NCBI GenBank assembly: GCA_028281635.1
Contig: JANQJM010000224.1
Location: 1-64,000 of the forward strand
Source: Pseudomonadales bacterium
GTDB taxonomy: Bacteria; Pseudomonadota; Gammaproteobacteria; Pseudomonadales; Pseudohongiellaceae
Direction of reading: 5' to 3'
DNA length: 64,000 nt
Notes under the pieces: generated by a model
What the model saw: the letters and a program-made list of their open reading frames with translations, nothing else
Told to the model about the DNA's origin: nothing
The model's database searches: none
Position numbers and translations under genes: made by a program
In this document: positions 55,143 to 59,826 of the stretch, one piece after another
Layout of the letters: each line of letters begins with the position of its first letter
Numbering within the stretch: position 1 is the stretch's first letter

Positions 55143-55745
55143 ATGAAATGTCAGAATCATCCAAACGCCACTGCCATTGAGAAGTGCGCTCGATGCGATA
55201 TTCCACTCTGTGGAATGTGTGCGACCTTTACTGATTCTGAAGTTCTCTGCGAACCCTGTGTTGAAATTCGGGAGAACGAAAAAGCAGTAGCTGCACAAAC
55301 AAAAAAACTGGAGCAGCCCGAACCCGAGTCCATAGCCCAGGAGTACGATGAGGAGATACTTAAGGCTGCTCAGAAGAAAGACTCGATTGGCCCGGTTCTG
55401 CAGATCCTGACCATTGCAGCCTGTGCGGTCATTCTCATTGTCAGGGCTGTTTTCTTTTCAGGGCCTGATGCACAGCCACCCCCAACGACCTCACCTGAGG
55501 AAGCGGCACAACTGCAAACTCTCACCTTACTGGCTCAGTGCATGTTTGTGTTTCAGGGAGTGAGTGAGGCCTTGATTGCTGGTACGGCGATTGATCCGTT
55601 AACAGCATGTCCAGATAGCCCCGCCCCTCTGGTGATCAGACAGACTGAAGACGATCTTATCGTTTCTCACCCACGCCCGGAGAATCTGGGCTATTCTGAA
55701 ATTTCCATATCCAGAAGCAACCCCGTTCCTCGCTTGATTGAATAG
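55143..55745 (+). CDS. B-box-type zinc finger protein with TM helix
   Basis: 200 aa; MKCQNHPNATAIEKCARCDIPLCGMCATFTDSEVLCEPCVE. Confidence 0.8.
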   Translation: MKCQNHPNATAIEKCARCDIPLCGMCATFTDSEVLCEPCVEIRENEKAVAAQTKKLEQPEPESIAQEYDEEILKAAQKKDSIGPVLQILTIAACAVILIVRAVFFSGPDAQPPPTTSPEEAAQLQTLTLLAQCMFVFQGVSEALIAGTAIDPLTACPDSPAPLVIRQTEDDLIVSHPRPENLGYSEISISRSNPVPRLIE

Positions 55746-55847: not shown

Positions 55848-56357
55848 ATGAATAAAAGCTTCATTTATTGTGTGGTCACTGTATTTAGCCTGCCGCTTTT
55901 AGCAGCGGAAGACCAACCCAACATTGAAACCTTAATGACTAGCGAGGAATTAAGAGCCACCGGTGTGGGTGAACTTTCAGAGACACAAATCGAGGCTCTC
56001 AATGCCTGGCTCGAGCGTTATCGGGAAGGCGAAGTCACCGCTGCAATTGCCGAAGTGCCAGTTGACACAAATTCTACAGACTCGGATAGTGTGGCGCGGC
56101 AACAGCCGGTCGACGTTTATCCTCCCCCCAGGGAAAGGATCATCATCAATACCAGAATCGATGGTGAATTCAATGGTTGGACCGGCAGAACCCGCTTCGT
56201 CATGCAGAATGGTCAGGTTTGGGAACAGCGCCGTGGCAGACGCTGGAAAATAACCCTGGACAGCCCCGAAGTCCGCCTCAGCCAGAACTTCATGGGCGCC
56301 TGGGAAATGGAGGTCGTTTCCGAGGGTCGCAGCATTGGTGTGCGCCGCATCCGCTAG
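55848..56357 (+). CDS. Secreted hypothetical protein
   Basis: Signal peptide MNKSFIYCVVTVFSLPLLAAED; start assigned at internal ATG. Confidence 0.65.
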   Translation: MNKSFIYCVVTVFSLPLLAAEDQPNIETLMTSEELRATGVGELSETQIEALNAWLERYREGEVTAAIAEVPVDTNSTDSDSVARQQPVDVYPPPRERIIINTRIDGEFNGWTGRTRFVMQNGQVWEQRRGRRWKITLDSPEVRLSQNFMGAWEMEVVSEGRSIGVRRIR

Positions 56358-56488: not shown

Positions 56489-57607
56489 ATGCGAAGACTA
56501 AGCATGGGTAAGTGCTTTTCGCGTCTGACATTGGCAATCGCCAGCCTCTCGCTCATGTCAGCCGTTTCAGCACAGATTACGCCAGAAGAAATCTCTGTGG
56601 AAACCATGCCAGAGCCTGGCGCGAATTGGTTTATTTCTAAAACTAACAATGGCGCCTATATATTCGATGCCGAATCGGGCGAGATGCAGGGACTGCTTTC
56701 TCTCTCGCGCCGCAGCCCAGCCGTAACTGCGTATTCCCCGCGCCAGGAATTCTACGCTGCCGAATCCTATATGGCACGGGAAGTGCGCGGCGAACGCACA
56801 GACCTGGTAGCCGTCTACGACTTTGACAACCTCAGTCCGGTTGCAGAAGTAATCATCCCCAATCATATGGCGCGCCTGCAGGTCCGTCGTCACCTGGGCC
56901 TGATGAACAACGGACGGCACCTGGCCGTACTCAACATGAATCCCGGTCATTCAGTTTCCATTGTGGACGTGGAAGACCGGGTATTCATCTATGAAGTATC
57001 CACTCCGGGTTGTGCGGTGATCATGCCAGTCGCCCAGAGCGATTTTCTGCAAGTCTGCGGTGACGGAACTTTGCAACTGATTCAGTTAGATCTCAGTGGC
57101 TTTGAGGAAAACCGCGTTCGTAGTGAGATTTTCTTCGACGTTATAGAAGATGCGGTATTTGATCGCGCCACACCCAGTGCCGATGGCTGGATATTAGTCA
57201 CCCATGCCGGTGTCATATTTGAAGTCAGCACCGATGATGATGAGATCAATATCGAAGACGGCTGGAACCTGGTGCAGGAAGGCGAAGAGAACTGGCGACC
57301 TGGCGGTGAAGAGTTCATCACGGCCCATGAAGACTACGGATTGCTTTATGTACTAATGCATCAGGGAGAGATCGATACCCATCATGAACCCGGCGAAGAG
57401 GTTTGGGTGTATGACATGGCGACTCAAAATCGAATCTTCCGCCTCGAACTGGAAGGTACTGCGCAGAGTGTCATGGTGACACAGGAAATAAATCCGAAAC
57501 TTATCTTGAACGGCGCGGACGGTGGCATCGATGTCTATGATGCCGTCAGCTTCAAGCACGAACGTCACATCGTCACGCCTGGTGCTTCACACTTCGAAGA
57601 CTTCTAA
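56489..57607 (+). CDS. mauB: Amine dehydrogenase heavy chain (MauB/AauB-like)
   Basis: 372 aa; signal peptide; seven-bladed-propeller-like secreted protein directly upstream of mauE-D-A; HLAVLNMNPGHSVSIVDVEDR, C-terminal GIDVYDAVSFKHERHI. Confidence 0.88.
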   Translation: MRRLSMGKCFSRLTLAIASLSLMSAVSAQITPEEISVETMPEPGANWFISKTNNGAYIFDAESGEMQGLLSLSRRSPAVTAYSPRQEFYAAESYMAREVRGERTDLVAVYDFDNLSPVAEVIIPNHMARLQVRRHLGLMNNGRHLAVLNMNPGHSVSIVDVEDRVFIYEVSTPGCAVIMPVAQSDFLQVCGDGTLQLIQLDLSGFEENRVRSEIFFDVIEDAVFDRATPSADGWILVTHAGVIFEVSTDDDEINIEDGWNLVQEGEENWRPGGEEFITAHEDYGLLYVLMHQGEIDTHHEPGEEVWVYDMATQNRIFRLELEGTAQSVMVTQEINPKLILNGADGGIDVYDAVSFKHERHIVTPGASHFEDF

Positions 57608-57626
57608 CAACCATAGTGAACTGATA

Positions 57627-58211
57627 ATGATCATTGATGCCGCCATACACAGTCTAATTAGCATGATCTTCATGCTGCTGTTGTTGTGGGCATCTATTCA
57701 CAAGTTTTCTGATCGCCTGCAGTTTCACGGAATCCTGGCGGCCTATCGACTATTGCCTGCTGCGCTGCTGCCTTTATTTACAGTGACTATTCCCATAATC
57801 GAACTTGGCCTGGGACTGGCCTGGCTCACAGGTATGCAAGGCACTGTCGTCGCACTGGCAACTGCAGCACTGCTGTCGGCCTATACCTTCGCCATGGGTA
57901 TCAATATCGTTCGTGGCAATACGGAAATCGACTGTGGCTGCGGCTTGAGTAGTGCCAAGCACAAGACCGCGGGTTATCAGCGTCTGTCTACCGGACTCTT
58001 GGTACGCAATGTAATTCTTATCTGTGCCGCCTTTGCTGCGCTTATTCCTTCCAATGAACGCTTGTTAGGACTAGTAGATTACTTTAGCGTGGGCTTGGCC
58101 TGCTTAGGATTGGTCTTGATGTACGCAGCATTTAATCAACTGCTCGCAAACAAGCAGATCATTGATAGCTGGCGCAAGGACCTGGTCAGCAATGGTGAGG
58201 CGCATGGTTGA
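57627..58211 (+). CDS. mauE: MauE-like amine dehydrogenase maturation membrane protein
   Basis: Multiple TM segments; INIVRGNTEIDCGCGLSSAK conserved in MauE. Confidence 0.88.
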   Translation: MIIDAAIHSLISMIFMLLLLWASIHKFSDRLQFHGILAAYRLLPAALLPLFTVTIPIIELGLGLAWLTGMQGTVVALATAALLSAYTFAMGINIVRGNTEIDCGCGLSSAKHKTAGYQRLSTGLLVRNVILICAAFAALIPSNERLLGLVDYFSVGLACLGLVLMYAAFNQLLANKQIIDSWRKDLVSNGEAHG

Positions 58212-58842
58212 AGCTCTAGTCGTCTCCAATATCGTCTTGTGGATCGTTGTAGTAGTACTGGCGCTACTAGTATTTGCTCTTACTCGTCAGGTTGGCATCC
58301 TGCATGAACGCGTTGCACCGGCAGGCGCTCTACAACCCACTAATGGTCCGAAAGTAGGTGAACTCACCACTGCCATGGAACTGCGCAGTGTGGATGGTAG
58401 CGATGTCACAATTGGCGGTGAGGACTCAACAGGCCTGGCAAACTTTGTCCTGTTTATTTCGCCCACCTGTCCGGTATGTAAATCTTTGGTGCCTACCGCA
58501 CAATCACTTATTCATTCAGAAAAAAACCGCATGCGTCTAGTGTTTGCGAGTGATGGCGCGGAGACTGAAGCAGATTTACAGCGGCACCGGGATTACGTTG
58601 ACGAATTAGAAATCACGGCCTATCCCTACATCATTTCCCAGGCTCTTGGTATGCACTACCAGGTCAGCAAACTTCCCTTTGCTCTGTTGATCGGTGCCGA
58701 TGGCACTCTAAAGAGCAAAGGACTGGTTAATACCAGAGAACATATGGAGAGCCTGATTGAATCCATGGACAGTGGTATTGGCACTGTGCAGGAGTTCGTT
58801 GGAAAAATTCAAACTGATAATGCAATGGAACAAACCCCATGA
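58204..58842 (+). CDS. mauD: MauD-like thioredoxin-fold maturation protein
   Basis: N-terminal TM; FISPTCPVCKSLVP CPVC motif; overlaps mauE and mauA. Confidence 0.9.
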   Translation: MVEALVVSNIVLWIVVVVLALLVFALTRQVGILHERVAPAGALQPTNGPKVGELTTAMELRSVDGSDVTIGGEDSTGLANFVLFISPTCPVCKSLVPTAQSLIHSEKNRMRLVFASDGAETEADLQRHRDYVDELEITAYPYIISQALGMHYQVSKLPFALLIGADGTLKSKGLVNTREHMESLIESMDSGIGTVQEFVGKIQTDNAMEQTP

Positions 58843-59375
58843 TGCTCGATAAGTTAGTTGATCGAACCTATTACTGGGTAGACGAAAAAGCACGAAATAC
58901 CAGTCTGGCATTCGCCCGCAGATTGTCCCGTAGAAACTTCCTCTCTCGACTGGGGGTGTTTCTCGCCGGTGCTGCTTCCTTCCCTCTTCTTCCCGTGGCT
59001 CGTTCCTTTGCCCAAGACTCAGTGCAGGAAGTGGGGGATCCACAGAGTTGTGACTACTGGCGCTATTGTGCGATGAGCGGAACACTTTGCTCCTGTTGCG
59101 GTGGCTCTTACACCTCTTGCCCACCGGGTTCGCAACCATCACCGATCACCTGGGTGGGTACCTGTCGTAATCCAGTAGACGGTCGGGACTATCTGATGTC
59201 GTACAATGATTGCTGTGGAAAGGCAGTGTGTTCTCGTTGTGGTTGCCACAACACCGAAGGTGATAAGCCGGTTTACTTCAACAGCAACAGCAACACAGTA
59301 CTGTGGTGTTTCGGCACCGAAGATACCAGTTACCATTGCACGGTTTCGCTGGTGCTCGGCGCCGCTGACGACTAA
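58839..59375 (+). CDS. mauA: Amine dehydrogenase light chain (TTQ-bearing beta subunit)
   Basis: 178 aa; RRNFLSRLG Tat-like leader; CDYWRYCAMSGTLCSCCGG...SPITWVGTC...DCCGKAVCSRCGC...VLWCFGTED...YHCTVS. Confidence 0.95.
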   Translation: MMLDKLVDRTYYWVDEKARNTSLAFARRLSRRNFLSRLGVFLAGAASFPLLPVARSFAQDSVQEVGDPQSCDYWRYCAMSGTLCSCCGGSYTSCPPGSQPSPITWVGTCRNPVDGRDYLMSYNDCCGKAVCSRCGCHNTEGDKPVYFNSNSNTVLWCFGTEDTSYHCTVSLVLGAADD

Positions 59376-59415
59376 AGAGATTCAATTAGATAAAAGAAAC
59401 AGCTCGCTTGCGGTC

Positions 59416-59826
59416 ATGCTCAGCATTAGAAACTTTAGTGTCATTATTCTGCTACTGGCTTTCAGCGCTGCCTCGCAAGCCGCCACGCCACGCACAAACT
59501 ATTTGCTGTACTGCAGCGGTTGCCATTTAGTGAACGGTGAGGGCAACCACCCTAACGTGCCTACATTGCACGGTGAGCTTGGGAGAATGATGACGGTCCC
59601 GGCAATGCGAGACTATCTGGTGCAGGTGCCTGGTGCAGCCCAGGCACCAATTGATGATGAAGAATTGACAGCTGTAATTAACTGGGTATTGGAACAATGG
59701 AATTCCGATACTCTGCCAGAGAATTTCAACGCGTTGACGCTGGATGAGGTTTCAGCGGCGCGTAAAGAAATTCTAGCCGACCCTTTGCGCTATCGAATTG
59801 AGAACTGGAAAGATTATCCTCATTAG
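59416..59826 (+). CDS. Small mono-haem cytochrome c
   Basis: Signal peptide; NYLLYCSGCHLVNGEGNHPNVPTLHG (CSGCH). Confidence 0.85.
   Translation: MLSIRNFSVIILLLAFSAASQAATPRTNYLLYCSGCHLVNGEGNHPNVPTLHGELGRMMTVPAMRDYLVQVPGAAQAPIDDEELTAVINWVLEQWNSDTLPENFNALTLDEVSAARKEILADPLRYRIENWKDYPH

Follow-up and report, generated by a model that had tools for sequence, protein, structure and literature searches.

The window, as we call the 64,000-nucleotide (nt) stretch of DNA analysed here, comprises positions 1-64000 of contig C2 in a 4.24 Mb metagenome-assembled genome (MAG) of a Pseudomonadales bacterium, which is 86% complete and contains a single PF02975 gene. On the + strand, positions 56489-59826 hold an intact five-gene operon of the tryptophan tryptophylquinone (TTQ) amine dehydrogenase type, in the order heavy chain, MauE, MauD, light chain and small c-type heme protein (Table 1). 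The mauE and mauD genes overlap by 8 nt, and mauD overlaps the light-chain gene by 4 nt. The family matches exclude chance by a wide margin, and the operon recurs at no fewer than 80 other loci. The light chain retains Trp57, Trp108, Asp76, Tyr119 and Thr122 in the numbering of methylamine dehydrogenase (MADH), which include both TTQ-forming Trp residues (in SPITWVG and VLWCFG) and the catalytic Asp76 and Thr122 by which a TTQ amine dehydrogenase is recognized. Its mature form has 14 Cys residues, equivalent to 7 potential disulfides. The preliminary description of the locus, which had read it as a compact TTQ amine dehydrogenase operon with overlapping genes and a light chain carrying both Trp residues and about 14 Cys, was thus correct in these respects.

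Table 1. Genes of the TTQ amine dehydrogenase operon in the window
Product	Position	Strand	Family match
Amine dehydrogenase heavy chain, MauB/AauB-like propeller, signal peptide	56489..57607	+	PF06433, E=1.5e-32
MauE, membrane disulfide-relay protein, DCGCG motif	57627..58211	+	PF07291, E=6.3e-23
MauD, thioredoxin-like light-chain maturation protein, CPVC motif	most likely 58204..58842	+	TIGR02661, E=7.8e-51
TTQ light chain, signal SRRNFL of the twin-arginine translocation (Tat) type	58839..59375	+	PF02975, E=1.4e-48
Small secreted monoheme c-type protein, one CSGCH	59416..59826, most likely start ATG 59416	+	PF00034, E=1.7e-4

The same description had left it ambiguous whether the operon belongs to the mau type, for MADH, or to the aau type, for aromatic amine dehydrogenase (AADH), and at the level of sequence features the ambiguity was justified. 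With the mau cluster of Paracoccus denitrificans the operon shares the heavy-MauE-MauD-light core, the TTQ Trp residues and the NTEG and WCFG motifs; the resemblance of the light-chain segment NTEGDKPVYF...WCFGTED to MADH, pointed out earlier, was evident when it was aligned with MauA and AauA. It differs from mau in having 14 instead of 12 Cys residues, Ser in place of Asp32, and no MauF, amicyanin, MauJ, MauG, MauM or MauN, none of which was found when sought near the operon. Moreover, its heavy chain, light chain and MauD match the curated NCBI equivalog models for MADH below their cut-offs (TIGR02658, 117.5 against 454 bits; TIGR02659, 161 against 197 bits; MauD, 172 against 189 bits). With the aau cluster of Alcaligenes faecalis (PDB 2AGY family) the operon shares the B-E-D-A gene order, the lack of mauF, mauG, mauJ, mauM and mauN nearby, a 14-Cys light chain, the TTQ Trp residues and the equivalents of Asp76 and Thr122. 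Over 110 residues, the light chain shares 55% identity with AauA of A. faecalis, and AADH heavy chains are the best PDB matches of the heavy chain (E=1.3e-37, versus 1.5e-23 for MADH). The window departs from aau in its MADH-like light-chain segment, in having Ser at the equivalent of AADH Asp84 and Arg at the position of Phe97, and in its last gene. An aau cluster is marked by the B-E-D-A order followed by a small c-type cytochrome without mauG, and that of A. faecalis presumably contains the orf-2 cytochrome and no mauG. The window shows this arrangement, but its operon ends solely in a heme protein devoid of the distal Met (the Met-less heme protein), without a Met-bearing cytochrome.

Phylogeny settled the question in favor of neither type. 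In a maximum likelihood tree of concatenated heavy and light chains (82 rows), the window was placed in a gammaproteobacterial clade of 50 rows with support of 100/100. The MADH rows (L117, L119 and L121) formed their own group (100/100) with the window outside, and the clade of the window was excluded from the group of 7 rows that contains A. faecalis AADH (98/91). Several branches are long and the order of the deep nodes is uncertain; nonetheless, the separation of the window from both MADH and AADH is firm. Therefore, the operon is neither mau nor aau but represents a third TTQ lineage. The mau accessory genes are present in L117, L119 and L121, and none of them was seen around operons of the window type. 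L121, located on a plasmid of Indioceanicola profundi, has a mau cluster with MauG and a 14-Cys light chain but no amicyanin next to mauA, and is possibly an intermediate. The aau-type light chains of L113, L114, L118 and L133 contain only 10 Cys residues, two disulfides having apparently been lost.

Two active-site positions that are important in MADH and AADH are occupied differently in this lineage. Asp32 of MADH (Asp84 of AADH), on which the biogenesis of TTQ in MADH is said to depend critically, is replaced by Ser or Gly in 48 of the 50 clade members but is Asp in 31 of the 32 other rows, and parsimony on the tree counts 3 changes between Asp and non-Asp. At the position of MADH alphaPhe55 (AADH Phe97), 17 of the 19 rows in the sub-clade of the window have Arg and the other two have Lys and Gly; the pocket loop of the window, LSLSRRSPAVT, carries a one-residue insertion, and the exact alignment of the Phe55 position is uncertain. 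Judged from these two replacements, the substrate pocket appears to be changed, and the enzyme probably acts on neither methylamine nor arylalkylamines. No gene flanking the operon gave a hint of the substrate. At L115, on pNL2 of Novosphingobium aromaticivorans, a non-mau TTQ operon lies between a TonB receptor gene and genes of the beta-ketoadipate pathway, which is a possible hint for the substrate of that lineage.

The fifth gene had been likened to the small cytochrome c gene that follows the aau genes. The position is indeed the same, but the protein is a Met-less paralogue, corresponding to the second cytochrome of aau-type clusters, and not an ordinary electron carrier. A profile search assigned it the fold of Thermus cytochrome c552 (E=1.5e-22), and its AlphaFold2 model (predicted local distance difference test, pLDDT, of 92) retrieved 1qyz and 1c52 as the best Foldseek matches. 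The fold and a C-terminal extension are common to the heme protein and Thermus thermophilus cytochrome c552 (1C52; Foldseek template modelling score, TM, 0.62), but the heme protein lacks the loop of 18-19 residues that bears Met69. The profile aligns to residues 8-49 and 71-127 of 1c52 with a gap at residues 50-70, and Met69, which we take to be the distal heme ligand of c552, falls inside the missing stretch. In a joint alignment, the conserved Arg and Asn are 23 residues apart in 165/166 family members, compared with 41-42 residues in 20/24 Met-bearing paralogues, mostly from aau-type clusters. The Met loop is absent in 165/166 heme-protein sequences, and no Met is conserved elsewhere. Hence, the protein lacks the distal Met that is expected of an electron-transferring class I cytochrome c, and another residue may serve as the ligand. 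Nor does it resemble MauG, which is characterized by two CxxCH motifs and the fold shared with bacterial cytochrome c peroxidase (bCCP), as it has one CxxCH and a c552-like fold. The group is not covered by any NCBIfam family, its Pfam matches are weak and confined to generic cytochrome models, and our literature search found no description of a Met-less heme protein. Asn serves as a heme ligand in SHP-type cytochromes, and the Asn that invariably precedes the helix Trp was considered as a replacement ligand; this candidate found no support, as the residue is also common in Met-bearing relatives. The Met-less heme protein is also encoded in clusters of the aau type from Pseudomonas, Haematobacter, Chimaeribacter and Cupriavidus, and aau-type clusters have it in addition to a Met-bearing cytochrome.

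The Met-less heme protein co-occurs one-to-one with TTQ enzymes of the non-mau kind. A search of relatives detected the light chain in 31/36 other members of the genus, and among the genomes scanned with both queries the heme protein was present in every genus member with a light chain and absent otherwise. The phylum was sampled evenly with 399 genomes. All 12 intact light-chain loci of this sample, which are spread over 10 genomes, and that of the window were accompanied by the heme protein at 104-175 bits, while the next match anywhere in the sample scored 47 bits; fragmentary light-chain matches in G318 and G349 were set aside as remnants. Among 72,556 plasmid records, 30 encode a TTQ light chain, and the heme protein was found in 15/15 non-mau and 0/15 mau records (Fisher p=1.3e-8, the records not being phylogenetically independent). 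Searched with the window heme protein, no plasmid record matched beyond these 30. The mau side of the comparison comprises the 15 mau plasmids and three mau loci inspected in full. From a scan of a genome collection the 80 best relatives were kept, mostly gammaproteobacterial MAGs and sphingomonads.

Conserved neighbors were counted at the 89 non-mau loci whose flanks extend for 6 kb or more on each side. The light chain and the heme protein were each encoded at 89 loci, the heavy chain at 88, MauD at 82 and MauE at 81. No further coding family was common to these loci, and the other recurrent 'families' were antisense shadow open reading frames. One candidate gene for TTQ formation can be named, and its occurrence is as general as that of the structural subunits. 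In one genome (G457), the heavy- and light-chain genes are located on L064 without a heme-protein gene beside them, and a mauE-mauD-heme protein trio is found on another contig (L193, 5031-6665). This split ties the heme protein to light-chain maturation more than to catalysis; the association is suggestive and not general. Ten loci (L053, L059, L060, L062, L063, L065, L074, L078, L081 and L084) have the order heavy-light-heme protein with no mauE or mauD between, and most of the tested genomes that lack adjacent mauE/mauD encode MauD elsewhere. Four loci of the same genus as the window (L164, L170, L171 and L172) represent a second, divergent type of TTQ operon that ends in two tandem genes for Met-less heme proteins.

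To our knowledge, MADH is the only TTQ enzyme for which formation of the cofactor is understood; there, MauG finishes it, and we know of no established route in other TTQ enzymes. In the sections of one article that deal with tryptophylquinone maturation, MauG is the protein named for TTQ, and none is mentioned in its place (PMC7876137). MauG orthologues with evidence of a mau operon were reported to fall largely in one cluster, and Burkholderia to lack conserved mau operons (PMC6405878); at the Burkholderia plasmid locus L116 in our survey, the heme protein is encoded in a TTQ operon of the non-mau kind. We found no bona fide MauG, as TTQ_mauG (TIGR03791) was matched above its cut-off in 0/80 genomes (41 of the genus, 13 wider and 26 others; double counting is probable for a few, and the light chain is absent from some of the genus members). 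All 12 intact TTQ loci of the phylum sample are of this MauG-less kind. Weaker MauG/bCCP relatives were common in the genomes searched. However, within a subset of 39 of the 80 genomes, 10 had no MauG relative at E<=1e-10, and all 10 carry the operon (G114, G244, G053, G313, G463, G474, G478, G479, G481 and G482). Two of these, G114 and G244, each consist of a single contig and are 100% complete.

On the basis of these observations we propose, with the odds about even, that TTQ is formed by the Met-less heme protein in place of MauG. The enzyme would be periplasmic, with the light chain exported by Tat and its disulfides formed with MauE and MauD, because the protein families imply these steps. 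As the Met-bearing loop is deleted, the distal face of the heme may be open, and the heme could react with peroxide or oxygen. Such a heme would draw electrons from the pre-TTQ Trp residues, and the protein would in this way oxidize and cross-link the two Trp to TTQ. The light chain would then assemble with the heavy chain, and the enzyme would deaminate a primary amine and pass the electrons to an acceptor. The likeness to MauG would lie in the proposed role only, namely heme-based oxidation of pre-TTQ Trp in the periplasm; the two proteins differ in the number of hemes (two in MauG and one here) and in fold class, and no sequence similarity was detected between them. More broadly, and with a slight lean against it, we tentatively suggest that most TTQ enzymes do without MauG and are matured by a single-heme protein whose Met loop has been deleted, turning a carrier into a heme oxidant, and that the clade of the window does so also without the Asp thought critical for TTQ biogenesis in MADH.

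Several points weigh against a role of the heme protein in TTQ formation. We know of no single heme that makes TTQ, and MauG has two. The window operon has no Met-bearing cytochrome, and a search of the 86%-complete MAG for a cupredoxin (PF00127) gave none, so that the enzyme has no evident electron acceptor. The window genome encodes an unlinked diheme MauG/bCCP relative of 453 residues (C16; L165, 1022-2380), which could act in trans. In addition, a MauG-like gene is convergent with the heavy-light-heme protein genes at L197 (1-3208, G462). Its product is 51% identical to P. denitrificans MauG but lacks Trp93 and Trp199, and it was the only such neighbor seen. Since both genes occur at L197, strict mutual exclusion of the heme protein and MauG was rejected. 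Finally, a dedicated electron acceptor would account for most of the co-occurrence data as well, since in mau clusters this function belongs to amicyanin.

In this alternative, which is the main rival and which we consider less likely than not, the heme protein would replace amicyanin or azurin; its pocket would tune the potential or be completed by a residue of the dehydrogenase, and TTQ would arise by another unlinked or an autocatalytic route. The strict pairing with the structural genes and the c552-like fold would be expected of an acceptor, as would the missing cupredoxin in the window genome, and the mau clusters of P. denitrificans and Methylobacterium, which are without the heme protein, do have amicyanin. 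On the other hand, the loss of the Met loop is invariant, though this loop is normally retained in electron-transfer cytochromes of such a kind, and aau-type clusters already have a Met-bearing cytochrome beside the heme protein. The Indioceanicola mau cluster has MauG, another small c-type cytochrome and no amicyanin, yet no Met-less heme protein, and in G457 the heme protein goes with mauE-mauD, not with the heavy and light chains.

It is unlikely that a diheme protein of the MauG family, encoded at an unlinked site, makes TTQ in trans as in MADH, with an operon that is otherwise ordinary and aau-like. A MauG/bCCP relative of 420-480 residues is encoded in the window genome and in almost every genome of the genus, and the copy on C16 of the window genome has identical residues aligned at MauG Tyr294, the Tyr ligand of MauG, and at Trp93, Gln103 and Glu113. 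However, this diheme gene is also present in the near-complete genomes G024 and G027, which have no light chain, and therefore is not tied to the TTQ enzyme. All copies score far under the TTQ_mauG cut-off, and the 10 operon-bearing genomes described above, including the two complete single contigs, have no such relative at E<=1e-10. It is very improbable that the operon is an ordinary aau operon subject to lineage-specific drift: the gene order B-E-D-A-cytochrome, the identity of the light chain to AauA and the closer match of the heavy chain to AADH than to MADH fit this explanation, but the tree puts the window outside the AADH group with full support, Asp32/Asp84 is lost, the pocket Phe is replaced, the NTEG..WCFG segment is MADH-like and an orf-2-type cytochrome is missing.

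If the Met-less heme protein forms TTQ, its knockout should yield an enzyme without TTQ; the co-occurring gene makes the question of how the cofactor is built directly testable. The operon also defines a widespread marine lineage of amine dehydrogenases, present in most of the sampled genomes of the genus, and this lineage is a lead for an unrecognized route of dissolved organic nitrogen turnover.

Two genes lie upstream of the operon in the window, one for a zinc-ribbon-like protein (55143-55745) and one for a probably secreted protein (55848-56357). Both recur near the operon in some members of the genus, at varying positions.

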